Source: Bacteroidales bacterium
Lineage (GTDB): Bacteria > Bacteroidota > Bacteroidia > Bacteroidales > UBA4181
Length of the DNA: 37,502 bases
NCBI GenBank assembly: GCA_031271175.1
Contig: JAISWE010000007.1
Location: 1 to 37,502 of the forward strand
Direction of reading: 5' to 3'
This document shows, piece after piece, positions 2,244 through 35,466 of this stretch. Under the pieces are notes generated by a model, which worked only from the letters and a program-made list of their open reading frames with translations, had not been told where the DNA came from and ran no database searches. The stretch's first letter is position 1; each line of letters opens with the position of its first letter. The position numbers and the translations under genes were made by a program.

Positions 2244-2881
2244 AGGTCTTCAACAATCGCGAGGGATTCCTCGGACTGTTCAACCGCGCGGAACTGCGCA
2301 TTTACGGTTATGCTTCCCCTTCGGGCGGCGCCTCGCTGACGCCGGACGAACTGCTCGCGCTGCCCGACGATGCGGCGCGCCGGCAGCGGTTGCTGGACGC
2401 GGTGGCGACGGAAGCGGAACATTTCGCGCAGAGTAGCCATCTCCAAATCGACGGGGTGCGCGACAACCAGACGCTTACTTTCGGCGAAACCGGCATATTG
2501 CTCTACCGCAGCGACGCCGTCCCCGACGCGCTCCACCTGCAACTGTGGGTCATCGAGAGCGACGAGGATGTGCGCCGCCTCGCAACGGACATCGACGGCA
2601 TCATCAACAGCGACGCTTTCAAAGGTCTGGCCACTGCCTTTATCACAGCCCTCGCCGTAAGCAATCCCATCGTCACCGCATCCATAGGGCTGGGAACGGT
2701 CTTTGCCAACCTGCTGCGCCAAAAACTCCGCGCCAACAGGGACGATCTCGTCGGCTACTGGCAGGCGGCGCTCCATCGCGCGGAACATTACCCGCACGGC
2801 ACCCGCGACCGGCAGGATGTGGCAGACACCACAGGCAACCTGCTGGTGGACTATACCCTCTTCGGAATAATTAATAATTAA
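2216..2881 (+). CDS. Conserved hypothetical protein, 221 aa
   Basis: A clearly coding, GC-richer frame with no signal peptide, so probably cytoplasmic. Residues about 1-30 (INKIKVFNNREGFLGLFNRAE) and the C-terminal third (QKLRANRDDLVGYW, then HRAEHYPHGTRDRQDV) have the look of conserved blocks. A hydrophobic run at about residues 138-165 (GLATAFITALAVSNPIVTAS) could be an amphipathic or membrane-associated helix. I do not recognise a named family and assign no function. The last codons, reading IINN, are made from the TAATAAT spacer repeat, which also supplies the stop, so the native C-terminus may have been replaced. It overlaps the SusC relic by 28 bp and is followed by the heptad-repeat frame 9 bp later. 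Confidence 0.7.
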   Translation: MFYARINKIKVFNNREGFLGLFNRAELRIYGYASPSGGASLTPDELLALPDDAARRQRLLDAVATEAEHFAQSSHLQIDGVRDNQTLTFGETGILLYRSDAVPDALHLQLWVIESDEDVRRLATDIDGIINSDAFKGLATAFITALAVSNPIVTASIGLGTVFANLLRQKLRANRDDLVGYWQAALHRAEHYPHGTRDRQDVADTTGNLLVDYTLFGIINN

Positions 2882-2893
2882 TAATTAATAATG
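2866..2893 (+). repeat. Heptamer tandem repeat (TAATAAT)n
   Basis: About four copies of the 7-bp unit TAATAAT span the stop codon of the 221-aa gene and the start codon of the next frame. The same sequence context recurs at 14572-14602 after the GH5-like gene. Confidence 0.8.
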
Positions 2894-3301
2894 AACAGCG
2901 CTGAAATAAATATGGATACGAGCGACGCATATTCGCATGTAAGCGACGCATATTCGCATGTAAGCGACGTATATTCGCGTGTAAATGGCGTATGTTCGCA
3001 TGTAAATGGCGTATGCGCGCATGTAAATGGCGCATGCGCGCGTGTAAATGGCGTATGCGCGCGTGTAAATGGCGTGTGCGCGCGTGTAAATGGCGTGTGC
3101 GCGCGTGTAAATGGCGTATGCGCGCATGTAAATGACGTATGCGCGCGTGTAAATGAAACGAATATTTCTGTAAATGAAATGATCTTTTCAGTAAATGAAA
3201 TGATCTTTTCAGTAATCAATAATTATAACTCCTTAAAATTCCGGATGGAAACAGCGAACGGCGGCGCCTTTACGCCTGAAATAGAGGCAAAAATAAATTA
3301 G
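2891..3301 (+). CDS. Heptad-repeat protein, 136 aa, encoded by a minisatellite
   Basis: The frame encodes about 14 heptads in a row: SDAYSHV twice, a mixed block of NGVCARV-type units, then NETNISV and NEMIFSV twice, followed by a non-repetitive tail (about 108-136, ending PEIEAKIN). Val sits at position 1 and Val, Ala, Tyr or Met near position 4 of each heptad, a coiled-coil-like spacing, though the many Asn-Gly pairs are poor helix formers. No signal peptide or lipobox. The frame stops one base before the membrane-protein gene, as in an operon. Because the 21-bp repeat keeps other frames open too, including the - strand, coding status is uncertain. The function is unknown. Confidence 0.45.
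   Translation: MNSAEINMDTSDAYSHVSDAYSHVSDVYSRVNGVCSHVNGVCAHVNGACARVNGVCARVNGVCARVNGVCARVNGVCAHVNDVCARVNETNISVNEMIFSVNEMIFSVINNYNSLKFRMETANGGAFTPEIEAKIN
2921..3205 (+). repeat. 21-bp minisatellite
   Basis: About 13-14 imperfect tandem copies of a 21-bp unit of the type GTAAATGGCGTATGCGCGCAT. The middle copies differ mainly at A/G positions of the GTATGCGCGC[AG]T part; the edge copies diverge more. Unit length is a multiple of three and of seven, so copy-number change would keep the frame. Two reading frames on the - strand also stay open across it. Confidence 0.9.
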
Positions 3302-3302
3302 T

Positions 3303-3629
3303 ATGGTAACTTTAAATTTTAGAAAAATGAATTATGGTAGTAACAGATACAGATTTGCGTTCAAACCGTCAAGAATATATTTTTACGGGCTTATTTTGGT
3401 TTTTATGGCCGTATTAACGATATTCTTTCCACATAATCAGTACGTAAAAATTTTTTGCAGTATATTGCTATTGACCTTTTTTTGTCTCACATATTTTGAC
3501 AAGAACGCAAGGAAATACAGGGATAGCCATCTCTCTTATTTACCAAAGTGGGTTTTATCGAAATGGACATTTTGGACATGCATGTCAATAGTTCTTGTAT
3601 CGTCAATATTTCAATTTATTTTATACTGA
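3303..3629 (+). CDS. Small integral membrane protein, 108 aa, unknown family
   Basis: Three hydrophobic segments can be read: about residues 25-42 (YFYGLILVFMAVLTIFF), 47-64 (IFCSILLLTFFCLTYF) and 88-107 (CMSIVLVSSIFQFIL), with basic loops (KNARKYRD) between the second and third. It starts one base after the stop of the heptad-repeat frame; ATG 3327 is an alternative start. Codons are visibly more AT-rich than in the flanking genes, which suggests a different history. No family recognised. Position and size would suit a partner or immunity-type membrane protein, but nothing in the sequence proves that. Confidence 0.6.
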   Translation: MVTLNFRKMNYGSNRYRFAFKPSRIYFYGLILVFMAVLTIFFPHNQYVKIFCSILLLTFFCLTYFDKNARKYRDSHLSYLPKWVLSKWTFWTCMSIVLVSSIFQFILY

Positions 3630-3634
3630 TTGCT

Positions 3635-4963
3635 ATGAATAATAAAAATATCCACGATATAGATATGCCTGTGTCAGGGGTCGCAGCCCCTGTCGGCGGC
3701 GGAAGGAACAAAAACCGACATCACGTTCGCACGGGAGCGGGACGCAGACAATGTCGATGGTCGATGCTTAGCCTCGCCCTTTTCCTGTCGTTCTGCGTCT
3801 GCAAACCTGTTGCTTCACAGAAGAAACAGGAAGCGGCAAGCGAAATACCCATTGTGGGGTGGTGGGGAATACCGGCGGACGAATCGACGCCGGAACGCTT
3901 CCGCGAACTGAAAGCGGCAGGCATCGGCATCAACTTTTCTCCTTATCCGAACATTCAGGCGGTGGAGAAAGCGCTGGATGCGGCGCAAAAAGCAGGAGTA
4001 AAAGTGCTGCCCTACTGCCCCGAACTGAAAGCGGAACCGGAAAAAACCGTCCGCCGGCTGATGAAGCATCCTGCCCTTGCCGGCTATCACCTGGCAGACG
4101 AGCCGGGCGCAGGCAGTTTTCCCGTACTGGCCGCATGGGTAAGGAAAATACAAGCAGTGGACGCCCATCACGGGTGCTACATCAATCTTTTCCCCAACCA
4201 TGCGCCTGCGGAGGCGCTCGGAACCGCTACCTACACCGAACATGTGGAAGCTTTCCTGCGTGAAGTGCCCGTTCCCTTCCTCTCCTTCGACTGTTATCCC
4301 GTCTTGGAAACTTCAGGACGGCGCAGTCTCAGGGATGGATGGTATGCCAACCTGGAGATAATTTCCGCCACCGCACGAAAGGCAGGCATCCCCTTTTGGG
4401 CTTTTGCACTGGCAACAGCGCACAACCCCTATCCCATCCCCACCACAGGGGAACTCAAACTGCAAATGTACAGCAACCTGGCCTACGGCGCACAGACGTT
4501 GCAGTATTTCACCTATTGGAACCCCGACACCACTACGTGGAATTTCCATCATGCGCCCATCGACCTGCATGGCAAACGCACTGCGGTATATGACCGCATC
4601 CGGCAGGTCAATGCGGAAATACAGCATTATGCAAGCGTGTTTCTGGGCGCAAAAGTTATTTCCGTAGAACATACCGGCAGAGAGATCCCTGCCGGTACCC
4701 GCCGCCTCAGCCGCTTGCCGGAACAGGTGAAAAAAATGGATACGGGCGAAAACGGCGCGGTGGTATCGCTGCTGGAAAAAGGAAACAAGCGGTTTTGGGT
4801 AATTGTCAACCGCGATTTTCAAAATCCGATGAAACTGACGGTCATCGTCAGCGACGAAGTGAAAAGGGTGTTGAAAGACGGAACGCTCGTCCCGACCGGC
4901 GCCTATTCGCAGGAATATGAAGTGGACGCCGGCGACGCAATCATTTTTGCAATTAATAATTAA
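3635..4963 (+). CDS. TIM-barrel glycoside hydrolase-like protein (DEP-motif family), exported
   Basis: About 442 residues from ATG 3635. The mature part shows alternating strand/helix barrel signatures: GWWGIPADE, FSPYPN, VKVLPYCPE, YHLADEPGAG (Asp155-Glu156), CYINLFPN, FLSFDCYPV, IPFWAFAL, LAYGAQTLQYFTYW. The same order occurs in the gene at 21508, a paralogue. The Asp-Glu-Pro after a strand resembles the catalytic pair of GH123-like enzymes; the usual GH-A second glutamate is not evident. The hydrophobic signal segment (LSLALFLSFC, then cleavage near PVASQ) begins only about 44 residues in. ATG 3764 would remove that odd leader, which contains the dispersed repeat, but leaves no basic residues before the hydrophobic core. 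The C-terminal INN and stop come from the TAATAAT repeat. The substrate is unknown. Confidence 0.65.
   Translation: MNNKNIHDIDMPVSGVAAPVGGGRNKNRHHVRTGAGRRQCRWSMLSLALFLSFCVCKPVASQKKQEAASEIPIVGWWGIPADESTPERFRELKAAGIGINFSPYPNIQAVEKALDAAQKAGVKVLPYCPELKAEPEKTVRRLMKHPALAGYHLADEPGAGSFPVLAAWVRKIQAVDAHHGCYINLFPNHAPAEALGTATYTEHVEAFLREVPVPFLSFDCYPVLETSGRRSLRDGWYANLEIISATARKAGIPFWAFALATAHNPYPIPTTGELKLQMYSNLAYGAQTLQYFTYWNPDTTTWNFHHAPIDLHGKRTAVYDRIRQVNAEIQHYASVFLGAKVISVEHTGREIPAGTRRLSRLPEQVKKMDTGENGAVVSLLEKGNKRFWVIVNRDFQNPMKLTVIVSDEVKRVLKDGTLVPTGAYSQEYEVDAGDAIIFAINN
3637..3673 (+). repeat. Dispersed 37-bp repeat, copy 2
   Basis: It is 36/37 identical to 1521-1557. It is followed one base later by a 6-bp-stem hairpin CAGGGG/CCCCTG with loop TCGCAG (3675-3692). 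It lies across the first codons of the following glycosidase-like gene if ATG 3635 is used. Confidence 0.75.
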
Positions 4964-5107
4964 TAATTAATAATTAATAATTAACAATTAATAGTGAATA
5001 GTAAATAATAATCAATGAATAACGAATAATAATCAATGAATAATAAATAATAAATAATAATCAATATGTATAAACAAATTAATAATTAATAATAAATAAT
5101 AATCAAT
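4951..5107 (+). repeat. AT-rich heptamer-repeat spacer upstream of SusC1
   Basis: (TAATAAT)n is followed by degenerate AATAAT/AATCAATGAAT units. The SusC1 start context is duplicated: AATCAATATGTATAAACA near 5059-5076 and AATCAATATGAATAAACC near 5101-5118, offset 42 bp. The upstream copy gives an in-frame mini-ORF of seven codons ending at TAA 5087-5089. No promoter consensus was seen. Confidence 0.75.
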
Positions 5108-8100
5108 ATGAATAAACCAATTAAAAACAGGAATCTTTTGCGAAAGCTATTCCTTATCTTAAGTTGCTGTATGTTTGTGCCGGCAGTGATGGCACAGCAG
5201 GGGATTCGCATCGGCGGGACGGTTTCCGACAGGGGCGGCGATGTGATGCCGGGGGTGAATGTCGTTGTGCGCGGAAGCGCCGTCGGCACGGTCACCGACA
5301 TCAACGGCGAGTTTACGATCACCGTTCCGGGCGACACTTCGGTGTTGCAGTTCAGTTTTGTGGGCTATCAGACGCAAAACGTCGTTGTGGGCAAACGGAA
5401 GATCATTTCGGTAGCGTTGAACGAAGAGGCTGCCGCGCTGGAAGAGGTGACCATTGTGGCCTTTGGCACGCAGAAGAAGGAAAGCATGGTGGCCTCCGTC
5501 ACCACGATTAATCCTGCCGAGCTGAAAGTGCCTTCCAGCAACCTGACCACCGCCTTTGCCGGGCAGATGGCCGGCGTAATTGCCTATCAGCGCAGCGGCG
5601 AACCCGGGCAGGACAATGCCGACTTCTTCGTGCGCGGCATCACCACCTTCGGCAACAACACCAGGCCGTTGATCCTGATTGACGGGATAGAGCTGACCAG
5701 CACCGACCTTGCGCGTTTGCAGCCGGACGACATCGCCAGCTTCTCCATCATGAAGGACGCCACGGCCACCGCGCTGTACGGCGCACGCGGCGCCAACGGG
5801 GTGATACTGGTCACTACCAAACAGGGCAAGGACGGACCGGCAAAGATCTCCCTGCGCATGGAAAACTCATGGTCGATGCCGACCCGCAATATCGAACTGG
5901 CCGACCCCGTCACCTACATGCGGCTGGAAAATGAGGCGACGCTTACCCGCGACCCCCTGACCGGACTGCCGGTTTATTCCGACGAAAAGATAGCCGATAC
6001 CGAATCGGGCAGGGACCCCCTCCGCTTCCCCGCCAACGACTGGTTGGACATGCTGTTCAAAAAATACACCATGAACCAGCGTTACAATTTGAATGTGAGC
6101 GGCGGCGGCGGAGTGGCGCGCTATTACGTGGCAGGATCATTCAACCAGGACAACGGAATGTTGAAAATTGACAAACGGCAAAATTTCAACAACAATATCG
6201 ACAACAAGTCCTATTCCCTGCGCTCGAACGTGAACATCGACATTACCAAAACCACCGAAATAATTGTCCGCCTGAGCGGGACGTTCGACGACTACAGCGG
6301 GCCGCTGCTTGGCGGTACGGACATGTACGGGCTGGTCATGCGGTCGAACCCGGTGATGTTTCCCGCCTATTACCCGGTAACGCCCGAAACATCGTACATC
6401 AAGCACATCATGTTCGGCAATTACAAAAATCAGTACATCAATCCCTACGCCGAGTCGCTGCGCGGCTACAAGGACCGGAACCGGTCGCAGATACTGGCGC
6501 AACTCGAACTGAAACAGGATTTGGGATTCCTCACCGAAGGCTTGTCCGTCAGGGGGATGCTCAACGTATCGCGCCTCTCGATGTTTACCGTCCGGCGGTA
6601 TTACTACCCGAACTATTATGAAATAGGGCGCTATAACTACGCCACCGGGGAATACGGCGTGTACCGCACCAACGAGGGCAACGACTGGCTGCTTTACGAC
6701 GAGCCGGGAGGAAGCGACGACCGAGCGACCAATTCCACCTTTTATTTTGAAGGAATGGTCAACTACAACCGCACCTTTGCCGAAAAGCACGCGGTCAGCG
6801 GCCTTTTGGTCTATATTGCGCGGCAATCGCTCAACGCCTATACCGGCAACCTGCAACTCTCGCTGCCCTCCCGGAACCTGGGGCTGTCCGGGCGGCTCAC
6901 CTATTCATACGACAGCCGCTACTCCGGCGAATTTAACTTCGGTTACAACGGTTCGGAACGCTTTGCCGAAGCACACCGCTACGGCTTCTTCCCTTCGGCG
7001 GGCGTAGCATGGAACATCTCCAACGAACGCTTCTGGGAACCGCTCCGCACGGTGGTGTCCAATCTGAAATTGAGGTATTCCTACGGGCTGGTGGGCAACG
7101 ACCGGATCGGCAGCGATAGCGACCGGTTCTTCTACCTGTCGGATATGAACATGACCGACGGCAACCGGTGGATGACCTTCGGCACCGAATATTCTTACTG
7201 GTACTCCGGTATCTCCGTTAGCCGCTACGCCAACGAGGACATCACCTGGGAAACCTCCGTCAAGCAGAATTATGCGGCGGAAATCGGCCTGTGGGAGAAA
7301 CTGTCCATCATCGCCGAATATTTTACCGAACGCCGGTACAACATCCTGATGACCCGCGCTTCCATTCCGCAAACGATGGGCATTGCCAACCGCGGCAACG
7401 TGCGTTCCAACGTAGGCGAAGCGACGGGCAAAGGCGTGGATTTGAGCCTGGAATACCAGCAAAACTGGTCGAGCAACTTCTGGACTGCGGCACGCGGCAA
7501 TTTCACCTTTTCCAGAAGCAAGTACAAAATATATGAAGAGCCGGCCTATACGGAGCCTTGGCGCTACCGCGCCGGACAGTCGCTGAACCAGACCTCCGGC
7601 TATCTGGCCGAAAGGCTTTTCGTGGACGACGCGGAAGCCGAAAACTCGCCTCGGCAGGAGATCAGCAGTTACAAATACAGCGGCGGCGACATCAAATACA
7701 CCGACGTGAACCGCGACGGACGCATCACCGAGATCGACGCCGTACCCATCGGCAACCCCACCGTACCGGAAATCGTTTATGGCTTCGGCGCTTCCGCAGG
7801 CTACAAGGGACTGGACGTTTCGATCTTCTTCCAGGGGCTTACCAACGAATCCTTCTGGATCGACCGGAACGCCATATCGCCTTTCGTCGGCCAGCACAAC
7901 CTGCTGAAAGTGATTGCCGACGACCACTGGTCGGAAGAAAACCGGAACGTGTACGCTTTCTGGCCGCGGCTCAGCACCGACTACAACACCAACAATGCGG
8001 TGCACAGCACCTGGTGGATGCGCGACGGCAGTTTCCTCCGCCTCAAACAAGCCGAAATAGGCTATTCCATTGGAGGCAAATGGAGAGAAAAACTGCGGAT

Positions 8101-8245
8101 CGGAACGTTGCGGTTCTACGTCAACGGCACCAACCTGTTCCTGTGGAGCAAATTCAAACTCTGGGACGTCGAAATGGCAGGCAACGGACTGGGATATCCC
8201 ATCCAGAAAGTCTTCAACTTCGGCCTGAACATTACTTTCAATTAA
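5108..8245 (+). CDS. SusC-family TonB-dependent outer-membrane transporter (SusC1)
   Basis: 1045 residues, full family length. Signal peptide at about 1-29 (cleavage near VMAQQ). Carboxypeptidase-regulatory-like domain at about 32-110 (GTVSDRGGDVMPGVNVVV, then FVGYQTQNVVV). TonB-box/plug start EEVTIVAFGTQKKE at about 114-127. Plug to about 235 with PLILIDGIE, then IMKDATATALYGARGANGV. The rest is a 22-strand-type barrel ending in the aromatic-rich FNFGLNITFN. It imports oligosaccharides, using ExbBD-TonB energy, together with the SusD lid encoded 28 bp downstream. The duplicated start region lies just upstream. A shared transcript with SusD1 is very likely from spacing. The glycan cannot be deduced from this gene alone. 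Confidence 0.96.
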   Translation: MNKPIKNRNLLRKLFLILSCCMFVPAVMAQQGIRIGGTVSDRGGDVMPGVNVVVRGSAVGTVTDINGEFTITVPGDTSVLQFSFVGYQTQNVVVGKRKIISVALNEEAAALEEVTIVAFGTQKKESMVASVTTINPAELKVPSSNLTTAFAGQMAGVIAYQRSGEPGQDNADFFVRGITTFGNNTRPLILIDGIELTSTDLARLQPDDIASFSIMKDATATALYGARGANGVILVTTKQGKDGPAKISLRMENSWSMPTRNIELADPVTYMRLENEATLTRDPLTGLPVYSDEKIADTESGRDPLRFPANDWLDMLFKKYTMNQRYNLNVSGGGGVARYYVAGSFNQDNGMLKIDKRQNFNNNIDNKSYSLRSNVNIDITKTTEIIVRLSGTFDDYSGPLLGGTDMYGLVMRSNPVMFPAYYPVTPETSYIKHIMFGNYKNQYINPYAESLRGYKDRNRSQILAQLELKQDLGFLTEGLSVRGMLNVSRLSMFTVRRYYYPNYYEIGRYNYATGEYGVYRTNEGNDWLLYDEPGGSDDRATNSTFYFEGMVNYNRTFAEKHAVSGLLVYIARQSLNAYTGNLQLSLPSRNLGLSGRLTYSYDSRYSGEFNFGYNGSERFAEAHRYGFFPSAGVAWNISNERFWEPLRTVVSNLKLRYSYGLVGNDRIGSDSDRFFYLSDMNMTDGNRWMTFGTEYSYWYSGISVSRYANEDITWETSVKQNYAAEIGLWEKLSIIAEYFTERRYNILMTRASIPQTMGIANRGNVRSNVGEATGKGVDLSLEYQQNWSSNFWTAARGNFTFSRSKYKIYEEPAYTEPWRYRAGQSLNQTSGYLAERLFVDDAEAENSPRQEISSYKYSGGDIKYTDVNRDGRITEIDAVPIGNPTVPEIVYGFGASAGYKGLDVSIFFQGLTNESFWIDRNAISPFVGQHNLLKVIADDHWSEENRNVYAFWPRLSTDYNTNNAVHSTWWMRDGSFLRLKQAEIGYSIGGKWREKLRIGTLRFYVNGTNLFLWSKFKLWDVEMAGNGLGYPIQKVFNFGLNITFN

Positions 8246-10223: not shown

Positions 10224-10230
10224 ACAAATA

Positions 10231-10275
10231 GTGAAAAATTAATAATGAATAATTAATAATTAATAATTAAAATAA
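10231..10275 (+). repeat. TAATAAT-type spacer repeat between SusD1 and SGBP
   Basis: A run of TAATAAT/AATGAATAA units fills the gap between SusD1 and the next lipoprotein gene. Confidence 0.7.
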
Positions 10276-12698: not shown

Positions 12699-12743
12699 AA
12701 TTAATAATGAATAATTAATAATTAATAATTAATAATGAATAAT
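12699..12743 (+). repeat. TAATAAT/AATGAAT spacer repeat overlapping a start codon
   Basis: Tandem AT-rich heptamers run into the ATGAATAAT start of the GH5-like gene, so the first three codons (MNN) are repeat-derived. Confidence 0.75.
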
Positions 12744-14588
12744 ATCTGTCAGCATCGAAATAAAATTCCTGTGTGTTACAAATCATTATTACCTTCAATA
12801 GCAGGTGCGGTTGTCCTTTGTTTCCTTTTGGGATGTAAGCATGAAAACGCAAAAGTTGAATTGCAGTCCATGGAGGTCATCCCTGCTTCGGTAAGACTGG
12901 CGGTGAACGGGACGCAACAACTGACCGTCGTCACCGTGCCGGAGAATCTGCCGGATGTGGCGTTCACCTGGACTTCCGACCATTCGGACATTGCCACCGT
13001 GTCGGACGACGGGCTGGTGACTGCCCTGCAGACAGGTTCCGCCACGATAAATGTGTCGAGCGGCGAGCTTCAAAAATCGGTGTCGGTGCTCGTCAGCGAT
13101 CAAATCATTGAGGTGAATCCCCCTTCCGTGATACTGACGGTGAACGGGACACAGCAGCTGACGGCCACAGTGGTGCCGGATATGCCGAATGTGGTCTTGC
13201 GCTGGTCGTCGGATGATCCTGCGGTGGCCGTCGTGTCGGATAACGGGCTGGTCACCGCCCGGCAAATGGGCGTCACCACGGTAAGGGTAACCGCCGGCAA
13301 CATGGAAGAAACGGTGAAAGTGAGCGTTGGCGCAATCGGACAAAGCGAAATTCTAAGCGTACAGAACGGGCATCTCTATCTGGGCGGTAAAAAATTCGCG
13401 GAAATCAGTTTCAACAAATTCGACCTTTTCTGGAAACTCTGGGATGCCGCCTATGCAGGTGAAGTAATCAACGACGCACATCCTGCGGTCATCCGGCAGG
13501 ACGAAGCCCTGAAAGAACTGTCCCAGCATGGTTTTAAAACCATACGCACCTTCTGTCTTCCCTTCTGGTACAAGGATTTTAAAGCAGTTTACGATGACCC
13601 GACCAAAAGGCAAAATGTATATTACGCGGCAATAGACAAAATGCTGGAACTTTGTGAGAAGCACCAGCTCAAGATCGTTTATTGTCTCGGTCTGACGGAC
13701 TTCATCCTTAAAGACTGGGGCTTGCGGGATGATGGCACATACGGGATGATCTACCATGAACACGTGGCGGATTTGATCGGAGATCCCTCTTCCGAGCAGC
13801 GGCAGCGCGTGATGACCTATCTGGACGACATTATCCCTCGTTACCGTTCCAGCCCGGCCATTGCCATGTGGGAAATTGCCAATGAAACGACACTGATACC
13901 GGATATCGATCCGACTCACATCTACGACGGGCAACGCATACCCACCATGCTGCAACTGTCCGAATTTTACCGCGACGTAACCGCGCGGATCAAGTTGCTG
14001 GATCCCGTCCGGTTAGTGAACAACGGCGGAAGCATCTTGCGGGAATATGCCTACGGGCTGTACCACGGAACGGGCTGGAGCAAACGCGACACTTACGGTC
14101 AGCACCAGGAAATATTTGACATGCTTTATGCCGACACCGGTCTTGGCGTGGTGGACATCCACTATTATGCCATTGCCGAAGGCGGTTATCGGATTCTCGA
14201 AAACGACGGCGTTACGCCGCTCTGGCTGGATTTAAAAAAATACAAAGCCATCGCGGACGATATGGGATTCCCCATATATGTGGGCGAATATGCCGCCTTG
14301 CCTGTCAATAAATCAGATACCGAATTCTGGACAAATTATCCCGATTATTTCGACACTTTCGACGGGGATAATGCAGATGCCCTCAGGTGGGTAGGCAAAG
14401 CGCTCAACGATGCCGTAAACAGCGGCATTCCGCTGATTCACTGGTGGTGTTACCAGTCGGACAGAGAACAGGATCAGGGAGACCCTCAACGCATGGATCT
14501 AGACCTGCAAAGAACGCCCACCCTGTTTCAAATGGTGGTGAACGCCAACCACGAACTGAAAGAAAAACTGGGAATAATTAATAATTAA
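12735..14588 (+). CDS. GH5-like (clan GH-A) glycoside hydrolase lipoprotein with two Big_2 domains
   Basis: 617 residues. Lipobox LLGC with Cys34. Two bacterial Ig-like (Big_2) domains at about 45-120 and 125-198, each with VNGTQQLT, then W(T/S)SD and a DNGLVTA-type strand. The barrel domain runs about 205-612. The probable acid/base is Glu384 in MWEIANE and the probable nucleophile Glu518 in PIYVGEYA, in the right order and spacing for GH5-like enzymes; HYY and HWWCY line the likely active site. Mannanase/glucanase-type activity is possible but not provable from sequence. The Ig modules probably act as a stalk holding the catalytic domain off the membrane. The C-terminal IINN and the stop are made from the AT repeat, as in the gene at 2216. 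Confidence 0.82.
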   Translation: MNNICQHRNKIPVCYKSLLPSIAGAVVLCFLLGCKHENAKVELQSMEVIPASVRLAVNGTQQLTVVTVPENLPDVAFTWTSDHSDIATVSDDGLVTALQTGSATINVSSGELQKSVSVLVSDQIIEVNPPSVILTVNGTQQLTATVVPDMPNVVLRWSSDDPAVAVVSDNGLVTARQMGVTTVRVTAGNMEETVKVSVGAIGQSEILSVQNGHLYLGGKKFAEISFNKFDLFWKLWDAAYAGEVINDAHPAVIRQDEALKELSQHGFKTIRTFCLPFWYKDFKAVYDDPTKRQNVYYAAIDKMLELCEKHQLKIVYCLGLTDFILKDWGLRDDGTYGMIYHEHVADLIGDPSSEQRQRVMTYLDDIIPRYRSSPAIAMWEIANETTLIPDIDPTHIYDGQRIPTMLQLSEFYRDVTARIKLLDPVRLVNNGGSILREYAYGLYHGTGWSKRDTYGQHQEIFDMLYADTGLGVVDIHYYAIAEGGYRILENDGVTPLWLDLKKYKAIADDMGFPIYVGEYAALPVNKSDTEFWTNYPDYFDTFDGDNADALRWVGKALNDAVNSGIPLIHWWCYQSDREQDQGDPQRMDLDLQRTPTLFQMVVNANHELKEKLGIINN

Positions 14589-14780
14589 TAATTAATAATT
14601 AATAGTGAATAATACATAATACACAATACACAATAAATAGTAAACAATAAATAGTAAACAATAAATAGTAAACAATAAATAGTAAACAATAAATAATAAA
14701 CAATAAATAATAAATAATAAACAATAAATAATAAACAATAAATAATAAATAATAAATAATAAATAATAAATAATAAATCT
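14572..14780 (+). repeat. Long AT-rich tandem array (7/14-bp units)
   Basis: It begins with TAATAAT units at the stop of the GH5-like gene. From 14632 it holds four exact copies of the 14-bp unit AATAAATAGTAAAC (14632-14687), then degenerates to AATAAAC/AATAAAT 7-mers up to about 14778. It almost entirely fills the gap to the DUF1735 gene. No promoter consensus or RNA fold is evident. The - strand is open for long stretches only because the repeat lacks stops in that frame. Confidence 0.88.
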
Positions 14781-17838: not shown

Positions 17839-17849
17839 ACGTTTCGAAA

Positions 17850-17945
17850 TAATTAATAATTAATAATTAATAATTAATAGTCAGAGTAATTTAATAATAG
17901 TCATAAGTAATTTAATAATAGTCAAAGTAATTTAATAATAAATTT
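17850..17945 (+). repeat. TAATAAT array plus three 20/21-bp tandem copies
   Basis: (TAATAAT)n occupies about 17850-17878. It is followed by AGTCAGAGTAATTTAATAAT (17879-17898), a one-base-longer copy with AGTCATAAGT at its start (17899-17919), and AGTCAAAGTAATTTAATAAT (17920-17939). It lies between the phosphoesterase and PKD genes. TTTTAATATCATGAAAA at the following start is shared with the start at 14807. Confidence 0.85.
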
Positions 17946-32393: not shown

Positions 32394-34178
32394 ATGAAGA
32401 AGTTCAGCTACATACAGTCAAACATCAAGCGTATCGCCGTCGTGGCGATGATGCTCTCCGCCGCTGCATGTTCGAAAATGTTGGATTCGGAAGACGACGG
32501 ACGCACCGAATATAGCGTTATTTTCAGCAACCGGAACAAGATAACGACTTTTTACACCAGTTGCCTTTCCACACTGGTGGCGCCCAACCTGACATCGGTT
32601 TCTTTCTGTGATGAAGGCGTCAATGCTTCCTTATACAAGGATAACAATATCATCCGCTGGTATTCGGGGCTGATCACCACTTCCGAACACGGCATCAACC
32701 CGTGGGGAGGCGACCCGTGGGGAAGCGCCTATTCCCTGATACGAAAGAGCAACATCTTTCTTGCACATATCGACAATGAAACATCGCAGATGAACATCGA
32801 CCAGCGCAACGGCATGAAAGCGGAAGTATTGGCTTACCGGGGCTATTATTTCTGGCAACTGGCAAAGCGTTTCGGCGGAGTGCCCGTTTTCACGGAGCCG
32901 CTGCTTCCTTCGCATGACTTTTCGCAAAACGTCCGCCCTACCTTTGGCGATGTGGTGCGTCGGGTGATTGCCGACTGCGAGGAAGCACTCAAAGGCCCCG
33001 ACACCCCGATAGGCTTTCCCTGGGAATGGTCGCAACGGACAGAAGGACACATCAACCCCGCTACCTGTCATGCGATTATGTCGGAAGCCGTTACCTATGC
33101 CGTCAGTCCGCTGTGGTACGACGGAAACATTTCCCGCGAATATGCCACCGAAATAACAGGGCGCGCCCTGTACGAATGTCTTTCCCACGGATATGAGCTG
33201 TTCGAAACAGAAAACCTTTCCATCGCCCAAAACGCATACGCACTCTATTTCCTTACAATGGAAGGATGGAATGGAGGAGACAGGGAAACCATTTTCCGTG
33301 TAGGCGGACAACTGCGCGTTTGGGCCGACAACGGTTTACCCTCCACTGCGCAGCAGTCCAGCGCCGGTTCCTGCCCGTCACAAAACATCGTGGACTGTTA
33401 CGAAATGAAAACCACAGGGCTTCCCCCTGTTCTTGGTTATACCGACAGGGAAAAAACCATCCCCAGCATCAACTACGCTTCCGGTTACGACCTCGATCAT
33501 CCGTATGCAGGACGCGACCCGCGTTTTGACGCATCCATTTATTACAACGGAGCCGTCCGTTTCCTGAATGCTCCTGCCGGACAAAAAGTGGAAACATTTG
33601 AAGGCGGCATGGAGGGAATACGCAACAACGATAACCGCTATTCGCCCACAGGCTATTACCTGCGCAAGTACAACCATTGGGATTCACGGCAGGGCAGTTC
33701 TATGGACGGCGCCATGAGAATGTTCCGGCTGGCGGAACTCTACTTGAACTTTGCCGAAACAGCCAACCGCTCGCACGGGCCGGATGTACCGGTATCCATC
33801 AATCCCGGCTTTAGCATCAGCGCAAGGGATGCAGTGAACGCCATCCGCCGCCGCGCAGGTATGCCCGATTTCCCCGCCGGCATGACTGCCGACGAGTTCG
33901 AAACCAAATACCGGAACGAACGCACGGTAGAACTCGCCTTTGAAGGGCATCGCGGATTTGATGTGCGGCGGTGGAAAATCCTGAACGAAACGGACGGCCA
34001 CATTACCGGAATGAAAATTACCGGAGGCGGAGGAACACCCATATATGAACGTTTTGCATTCGAAGAACGAAAATGCAATACCGACAAATATCTTATTTTC
34101 CCCATCAACCTGACGGAAGTACGCAAAATACTCCTTCAAACAGGTAATAACTGGCAAAATCAGGGATGGGACTATTAA
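32394..34178 (+). CDS. SusD/RagB-family lipoprotein (SusD3)
   Basis: 594 residues. Lipobox AAAC with Cys26. SusD blocks: MKAEVLAYRGYYFWQLAKRF, GGVPVFTEPLLP, MFRLAELYLNFAETANRS, AVNAIRRRAGMPDF, RNERTVELAFEGHRGFDVRRW, and the end TGNNWQNQGWDY. It is the surface lid and binding partner of SusC3, 17 bp upstream. A 14-bp tandem repeat (TTGAAAATTGAAAG) begins right after its stop and precedes the DUF1735-propeller gene. Confidence 0.95.
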   Translation: MKKFSYIQSNIKRIAVVAMMLSAAACSKMLDSEDDGRTEYSVIFSNRNKITTFYTSCLSTLVAPNLTSVSFCDEGVNASLYKDNNIIRWYSGLITTSEHGINPWGGDPWGSAYSLIRKSNIFLAHIDNETSQMNIDQRNGMKAEVLAYRGYYFWQLAKRFGGVPVFTEPLLPSHDFSQNVRPTFGDVVRRVIADCEEALKGPDTPIGFPWEWSQRTEGHINPATCHAIMSEAVTYAVSPLWYDGNISREYATEITGRALYECLSHGYELFETENLSIAQNAYALYFLTMEGWNGGDRETIFRVGGQLRVWADNGLPSTAQQSSAGSCPSQNIVDCYEMKTTGLPPVLGYTDREKTIPSINYASGYDLDHPYAGRDPRFDASIYYNGAVRFLNAPAGQKVETFEGGMEGIRNNDNRYSPTGYYLRKYNHWDSRQGSSMDGAMRMFRLAELYLNFAETANRSHGPDVPVSINPGFSISARDAVNAIRRRAGMPDFPAGMTADEFETKYRNERTVELAFEGHRGFDVRRWKILNETDGHITGMKITGGGGTPIYERFAFEERKCNTDKYLIFPINLTEVRKILLQTGNNWQNQGWDY

Positions 34179-34212
34179 TTGAAAATTGAAAGTTGAAAAT
34201 TGAAAGTTGAAA
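34179..34212 (+). repeat. 14-bp tandem repeat TTGAAAATTGAAAG
   Basis: Two exact copies (34179-34192 and 34193-34206) plus a partial copy directly upstream of the ATG at 34213. The unit is again two 7-mers (TTGAAAA, TTGAAAG), matching the heptamer periodicity of the other spacers but with a different sequence. Confidence 0.85.
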
Positions 34213-35466
34213 ATGAAAAATACTCATCATACAATAAAACCTGTGAAAACAAGATCCGTTTTATTCACTTGGGCGTGGTGCATCCCGACAGCGGTACTGT
34301 CGGCCATGTTCTTACCGTCGTGCAGCGACGAGGAGTCCGAAGCCGAACCGGTCAAAGTCTATTTTTCTTCGACGGCAGTTCGTACGGTAATGCTTTTCAG
34401 CAAAAACGACACCGCCTTTTCGTTCGGATCGATCCGCTACGACTGGGATAAAGTCAATCAGGGTGAAATCACAGCCATGCTTGCCGGCGGCGGCAACGAA
34501 TTTTTAGAAAAGTACAATGCCGCAAGAAATACCCAGCATGAACTGTTGCCGGAAAACAATTACAGTTTGAACCATACATCGCTGGTGATTGAAAACGGGA
34601 AAAAAATTTCGGAAGAAGGAATGTTTACCGTCAAAAATATCGAACAACTGGATACAAGCAAAACATATTTGCTGCCGGTGACGATTCAATCGCTCAGCGC
34701 AACGGCTAATGTAATACCGCACGACCTGAAAAAGACCTCCTGGTGGGTATTGTCCGTCAATATTCCTGAAGAACCGGTGGAGATAGCACCGCCAACGAAC
34801 GTTTTCAACGTGGCGGGAAGAAATCTGATATCCCTGTTCGTTTACGGGAATTTTCTGGTAACACATGAAACCAACGGTTTGATAAATCTATATGCCTATG
34901 ATGCGTCCGGTCAAATATTCAGTACAACAAGCTCCTCAACGAATGGCGGATGGAATGTTTTCAATACGCTGATGCCTTCTACGACGGGATTTATTGGAAG
35001 ATGGGCGGATTCCGGCAATTTGTGGGAATATACTGTTGATCAGTCGGGATTTCTAGCAGGCGATTTCCAAACAAAAGGGACAGGTTTTAACGATTACCTT
35101 ACGATTACTTCTTCGGTATTTCACGATGCGCTGTTTGGTATAAAATCGACGGGAGAACTGTATGGTATCAAGCGCGAAGGCACGCAGTGGACAAGTATTG
35201 CCGTTAAAATGGCCGACGGCTGGAATCAATATTCCAACGTTGTCGCTTACGGCAACGGGATTCTTGCTACCGACAGCAACGGATATTTGTGGTTTTTTAC
35301 GGTCAACCAGGATCTGTCCATAGATAGCGGGGTGCTTACAGGTACGGGATGGGAGATGTTCCAAAACCTGTTTGTCTTTGGCAACAACCTGCTGACAATT
35401 ATTGATGATCAGTTGTGGATGTATTCATTCGATTTGGATGGTTATTGGAAAGCCGTACTGCCATAG
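34213..35466 (+). CDS. DUF1735 lipoprotein with tachylectin-like beta-propeller
   Basis: 417 residues from ATG 34213. Lipobox LPSC with Cys37, then SDEESEAE. DUF1735 at about 44-160 (SFGSIRYDWDKVNQGEITA, then YLLPVTIQSL) is closely related to the DUF1735 part of the protein at 14807. From about 175 on, there are four to five repeats of about 45 residues carrying GW..F/Y followed by a hydrophobic strand and an LW/LY turn: GGWNVFNTLM, DSGNLWEYTV, STGELYGIKR, DGWNQYSNVVAYGNGILA, SNGYLWFFTV, TGWEMFQNLFVFGNNLLT. This is the pattern of tachylectin-2-type five-bladed propellers, which bind N-acetylhexosamines. The role is most likely a surface lectin in the SusC2-D3 operon. It is the last gene of the + strand block. 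Confidence 0.78.
   Translation: MKNTHHTIKPVKTRSVLFTWAWCIPTAVLSAMFLPSCSDEESEAEPVKVYFSSTAVRTVMLFSKNDTAFSFGSIRYDWDKVNQGEITAMLAGGGNEFLEKYNAARNTQHELLPENNYSLNHTSLVIENGKKISEEGMFTVKNIEQLDTSKTYLLPVTIQSLSATANVIPHDLKKTSWWVLSVNIPEEPVEIAPPTNVFNVAGRNLISLFVYGNFLVTHETNGLINLYAYDASGQIFSTTSSSTNGGWNVFNTLMPSTTGFIGRWADSGNLWEYTVDQSGFLAGDFQTKGTGFNDYLTITSSVFHDALFGIKSTGELYGIKREGTQWTSIAVKMADGWNQYSNVVAYGNGILATDSNGYLWFFTVNQDLSIDSGVLTGTGWEMFQNLFVFGNNLLTIIDDQLWMYSFDLDGYWKAVLP

Follow-up and report, generated by a model that had tools for sequence, protein, structure and literature searches.

The window analyzed here is a 37,502-bp stretch of DNA that makes up the whole of contig C187, one of the 236 pieces of a 2.93-Mb Bacteroidota genome. 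An array of tandem 21-bp repeats lies in this window between a gene for a 221-amino-acid (aa) protein (2216-2881) and a 108-aa frame (3303-3629). The features of the array and its surroundings are collected in Table 1. The 221-aa protein (MFYARINKIKVFNNREGF...) is encoded by a single-copy gene in this genome and had no match in Pfam, NCBIfam, or PADLOC. A long open reading frame (ORF; 5108-8245), recognized by eye as what we take to be a SusC/TonB-type receptor, begins 1.9 kb past the array.

Table 1. Features of the repeat block, with positions in the window
Feature	Position	Strand	Basis
AATAATT heptanucleotide array, left edge of block	2866-2892		TRF, distances to ORF starts
Duplicated block, common to C79 and C28 (own genome) and G001:C59 (sister species)	2865-3240	+	blastn extents, sequences
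Open reading frame, 136 codons, spanning the array; not regarded as a gene	2891-3301	+	Frameshifts in relatives, neutral substitutions
14 tandem 21-bp units	2921-3214	+	TRF, unit list, core spacing, lag-21 identity
Tail after the array	3215-3301	+	First ~25 bases common to paralogs, then unique sequence

Period-21 arrays were called by TRF at 2921-3215. The array is composed of 11 units with the core consensus AATGGCGTATGCGCGCGTGTA (2921-3151) and three diverged AATGAAA... units (3152-3214), and all 14 in-register units end in GTA. A TGTAA core recurs at each 21 bp, with 11 of 11 core spacings equal to 21 bp. Identity at lag 21 was 0.92 over 210 bases, whereas no value above 0.40 was obtained when the window was shuffled 200 times. 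Chance is far from accounting for the 21-bp repeat, and a preliminary description of this DNA, which had reported a 21-bp minisatellite encoding about 14 heptads at 2891-3301, was confirmed on this point.

The AATAATT repeats at the left edge of the block are a feature separate from the 21-bp array. Repeats of this 7-bp class also precede several other genes of the window; AATAATT-like arrays at 4951-5100, 10227-10270, 12699-12743, 14573-14778, 17848-17879, and 34177-34219 end about -12 to +80 bp from the start codons of successive genes. Within the 21-bp array, identity at lag 7 was 0.147, a value below chance that indicates the lack of a 7-bp subperiod. The idea that three 7-bp repeats gave rise to the 21-bp unit was rejected on this ground, and the 7-bp periodicity that the preliminary description found striking next to the seven-residue one belongs to the separate heptanucleotide repeats. 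Intergenic heptamer direct repeats, such as TAACTGA, have been described in Beggiatoaceae, Cyanobacteria, and Bacteroidetes (PMC4679880). The AATAATT arrays of the window resemble these repeats in being short, tandem, and near start codons, whereas the 21-bp array has neither a 7-bp unit nor a subperiod of that length and is tied to one gene family.

Homologous arrays were found on three other contigs of the same genome (C79, C28, and C101), and the number of units among these paralogs ranged from 13 to 21. The window array was 87 to 92% identical in DNA sequence to the C79 and C28 arrays, with homology also to the arrays of C101 and of contig C59 of a sister species (G001). A gene whose product begins MNDRQESK starts where each of the C79, C28, and C101 arrays ends. 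This gene is complete at C101 (227 aa) and is recognizable only in its first 39 codons at C28 and 31 codons at C79, where a stop is present. In sister species, too, the array copies are followed by MNDRQES genes, whole or as 5' fragments. A search of the genome with the MNDRQES protein returned matches at C101, C65, C28, and C79 only, and none in the window. The right border of the duplicated block, at about 3240, is the point at which the downstream gene starts in the other copies, and no trace of the MNDRQES gene was found in the tail at 3215-3301. Because homology stops at about 3240 and no gene trace follows, the window array is an orphan copy without its gene, and it resembles the solo arrays of sister genomes. 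At least two contigs of this genome also carry arrays of a 42-bp repeat (ATCCCGATAGGGATTATCGCTCGGTAGAAAAC...), at L024:3730-3939 and L152:330-542 (after reverse complement), and one of these arrays adjoins the C79 21-bp array.

The 227-aa MNDRQES protein had no match in Pfam, NCBIfam, PHROG, or PADLOC, and the gene had no match as a defence system. The linked gene was matched in neither phage nor plasmid records, and the array had no match in plasmids. Distant homologs of the protein (22 to 43% identity) often bear a C-terminal CarboxypepD_reg domain, and AlphaFold2 modelling of the protein yielded a confident helical bundle (pLDDT 88.8). The gene-array unit was also present in Bacteroidales metagenome assemblies, including those of a Tannerella sp. 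and a Dysgonamonadaceae bacterium.

Homologs of the MNDRQES protein were sampled from other genomes across the phylum by protein sequence alone, and a locus was scored as positive when its best repeat lag in 600 bp was one of four (21, 42, 63, or 84), with an identity of 60% or more. The upstream 600 bp were periodic at these lags in 34 of 40 MNDRQES loci, compared with 0 of 36 for the 600 bp downstream and 4 of 451 upstream of control frames (Fisher p 8e-42). The association is very strong, but this p-value and that for DUF6261 below are not to be taken literally, since several loci are within-genome paralogs and so not independent. Positive loci spanned at least 13 family codes. Unit sequences were unrelated between distant families, and the 21-bp period was retained. 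Six of the 40 loci were without a clear array, and clear exceptions to the association were L231, L220 (Dysgonamonadaceae), L140, and L141.

A parallel case was found in the genes encoding DUF6261 (PF19775). Arrays with a period of 41 to 43 bp were present upstream of 29 of 35 DUF6261 loci, downstream of 2 of 33, and at 6 of 451 controls (p 6e-35). Since 41 and 43 are not multiples of three, arrays of these periods cannot be codon repeats. Up to 20 copies of DUF6261 occur in one genome, and in the G004 and G007 genomes the gene-linked units are also found at other sites, in solo arrays. At loci L149-L178 and L185, the unit sequences were unrelated among arrays. The units are often palindromic, with a dyad z above 2 in 17 of 24. 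The DUF6261 protein was also modelled as a helical bundle, and homology between it and the MNDRQES protein was undetected by profile comparison (probability 1.3%). PDB searches with both proteins returned generic bundles only, among them chemoreceptor and sensor domains and trypanosome haptoglobin-haemoglobin receptors, with Z values that are uninformative for bundles. The linked proteins had no match to a DNA-binding family and are mostly acidic, and so are not obvious DNA binders. A Bacteroidetes-type TAnnTTTG box was found within 120 bp of the ATG at 13 of 34 DUF6261 loci, 8 of 41 MNDRQES loci, and 89 of 451 controls. At those DUF6261 loci the box often lies downstream of the array, which fits an element positioned upstream of the promoter. 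No published description of an association between arrays and MNDRQES or DUF6261 genes was found in the open-access literature searched, in which DUF6261 is named in an unrelated context.

The preliminary description had offered two readings of the window array: a coiled-coil-like protein of variable length, or noncoding satellite DNA that mimics one. In one version of the first, the frame at 2891-3301 would encode a heptad protein translationally coupled to the downstream gene. As had been described, the seven-residue units of this frame carry Val at fixed positions, the a and d places of the heptad. The frame is open in the window, C79, C28, C101, G001, and G004:C279, it stays open as far as the overlap with the gene start in two sister arrays and in the paralogs of the window's genome, and it ends in a ATGAATGA overlap with the gene start in C28, C101, and G004:C279. 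The best Pfam match of the ORF was DUF948 (PF06103; 22.3 bits, E 1.5e-4), below the curated cut-off of 37.2. However, frameshifts in close relatives, which the preliminary description had set against a protein, were found in 5 of the 16 sister-genome arrays with a TGTAA core. In these slipped arrays, one or two 22-bp spacings shift the frame and introduce stops, after which the 21-bp repeat resumes. Substitutions were neutral at the amino-acid level: variants among 39 core units from three own-genome arrays comprised 5 silent and 11 replacing changes, where 30% silent are expected without selection, and the second codon position was the most variable. TGTAA was near-invariant as DNA, third codon positions included, in all four own-genome arrays, and most heptads of the C101 array contain proline (VNDVPAH).

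Both strands of the array had been described as open, and minus-strand frames at 2878-3219 and 2885-3127 do exist. When the 21 columns of the window array were permuted, a sense frame was open in 50% of cases and an antisense frame in 67%, and the three open frames observed had a P of 0.12. These frames carry no weight, because composition alone yields them. Among 30 MNDRQES arrays, an open sense frame was present in 23, compared with 19.8 expected from column permutation, and the other 7 lacked any open sense frame. We reject the coding reading with high confidence; the heptad protein is left with only a very slight probability, and it is almost certain that the 21-bp repeat in the window is no protein gene. 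The constant element is the DNA string TGTAA at each 21 bp, and the seven-residue period exists because the DNA period is 21 bp. The second of the earlier readings was supported as regards noncoding DNA, but not as a plain satellite, since the array family is tied to one gene family. Some 21-bp arrays in the genus may be coding, as suggested by a 338-aa ORF at L065:705-1721 (starting MARYLDPKHDIPFKRVFGEHPELL) that contains an in-frame 21-bp array at 1450-1659.

The arrays of this class are noncoding and gene linked, and their period is kept across the phylum while their sequence turns over. A length of 21 bp corresponds to two turns of B-DNA, and 41 to 43 bp corresponds to four. A period that is fixed while the sequence is free is most simply explained by protein contacts upstream of a gene, all on the same face of the helix, and the array is probably a row of protein-binding sites. 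On balance, we favor the reading that the window feature is a noncoding array of a class normally found within about 100 to 450 bp upstream of the genes of one Bacteroidota protein family, where it would act as a helically phased cis-element. In this model, putative protein-binding units two helical turns apart, with a TGTAA core in this lineage, would regulate the linked gene or serve as a mark for it. Phasing would maintain the period, and the sequence would drift together with a fast-evolving binder. Arrays would grow and shrink by slippage and would be copied to gene-less sites, the window copy included. Isolated 22-bp spacings are tolerated, which indicates that phasing is not absolute. 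Conservation over the phylum of the spacing, but not of the letters, suggests that selection acts on the geometry of the DNA and not on its sequence.

More tentatively, and with considerable doubt, the MNDRQES and DUF6261 genes may each represent a system with a private upstream array, its period fixed at two or four helical turns and its sequence evolving jointly with that of one specific partner, the arrays also spreading solo. If this is true, Bacteroidota would contain array-plus-protein systems of a new class. The arrays offer a handle on two multicopy gene families of unknown function and account for one kind of spurious heptad ORF annotated in Bacteroidota. What the window contains is an orphan noncoding minisatellite, and the more interesting finding behind it is that arrays of locked period accompany two gene families.

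The nearest description is that of BrickBuilt, a 23-bp minisatellite/MITE of Porphyromonas gingivalis (PMC4596501). Like BrickBuilt, the array described here is an intergenic minisatellite of a Bacteroidales genome, with a unit of about two helical turns and multiple copies per genome. However, its unit is 21 bp, and the window copy is without an inverted-repeat leader and tail, although terminal inverted repeats are present in the G007 relatives. Further, the description of BrickBuilt does not link it to a single gene family, while here the period is retained across the phylum with unrelated unit sequences. REPIN/RAYT systems (PMC3116915) are similar in comprising a gene-linked repeat with extra solo copies in the genome and divergence between lineages. 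In contrast to REPINs, the 21-bp units are direct and tandem rather than palindromic (dyad z about 0), although the DUF6261 arrays have dyads. Searches of Pfam, NCBIfam, PHROG, and PADLOC recognized no transposase, such as the Y1 type, in the linked gene, and its PDB fold matches were uninformative. Upstream variable-number repeats are known to tune expression, as for Moraxella uspA2 (cited in PMC4679880), and the copy number here likewise varies upstream of a gene among own-genome paralogs. As far as that citation describes them, uspA2-type repeats are short units at single loci, whereas the present arrays have a fixed 21-bp or 41- to 43-bp period across families.

An alternative is a selfish or MITE-like minisatellite, as in BrickBuilt, whose mobile or self-amplifying arrays are carried with the gene and scattered solo, without function for that gene. 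The G007 genome contains an element of about 360 to 405 bp in three copies at different sites (L042:1468-1830, L054:1465-1820, and L059:1288-1692), in which a near-identical unit (GAATGTAAATGGCGATTGCGC) is repeated between the inverted ends CAGGGTCAACGCATTAAAA and TTTTAATGCGTTGACCCTG. This element, a 21-bp array between inverted terminal repeats, is MITE-like, and together with the units shared by solo and gene-linked arrays in G004 and G007 and the solo state of the window copy, it argues for such an origin. On the other hand, no inverted ends surround the window array, and drift alone leaves unexplained why the 21-bp period and upstream position remain constant while the sequence is replaced. 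We regard a purely selfish element as rather unlikely. Less likely still is an element acting as RNA, in which the array would be transcribed, as a long leader or a separate RNA, and its units would act in cis or trans, possibly as repeated RNA units bound by the linked helical-bundle protein. The position of the arrays on the 5' side of the gene would suit such a function, as would the frequent palindromes of the DUF6261 units, which could form repeated hairpins. However, the 21-bp units are without dyad symmetry (mean z 0.05), the TAnnTTTG box often lies downstream of the array at DUF6261 loci, the linked proteins are mostly acidic, and there was no Rfam match at the gathering score in the window or at nine array loci. 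An RNA element is improbable in light of these observations, and the helically phased cis-element remains the preferred reading.

Several further repeats were observed. The internal 21-bp TGTAAATG array of the G007 element has a unit nearly identical to that of the window, and a possible 10-bp target duplication (AATAATTTTC) was noted at L059. A MITE around the window array was rejected as a candidate, as the G007 inverted end was absent, with one two-mismatch match at chance level. The proposition that all arrays in the genus have a 21-bp unit was also rejected, as it reflected the bias of a heptad query; random stretches also contained arrays of 23, 41 to 44, 63 to 66, and 69 to 71 bp. Several genomes of the genus also contain a dispersed repeat of about 70 bp (GTCCCTGCGGGACTT ... 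CGTATGCTTTAGCTTACGG) in short arrays, frequently close to the end of a contig, at L071:172-326, L077:486-710, L078:6330-6490, L096:162-438, L104:12857-13036, and L025:86-310.
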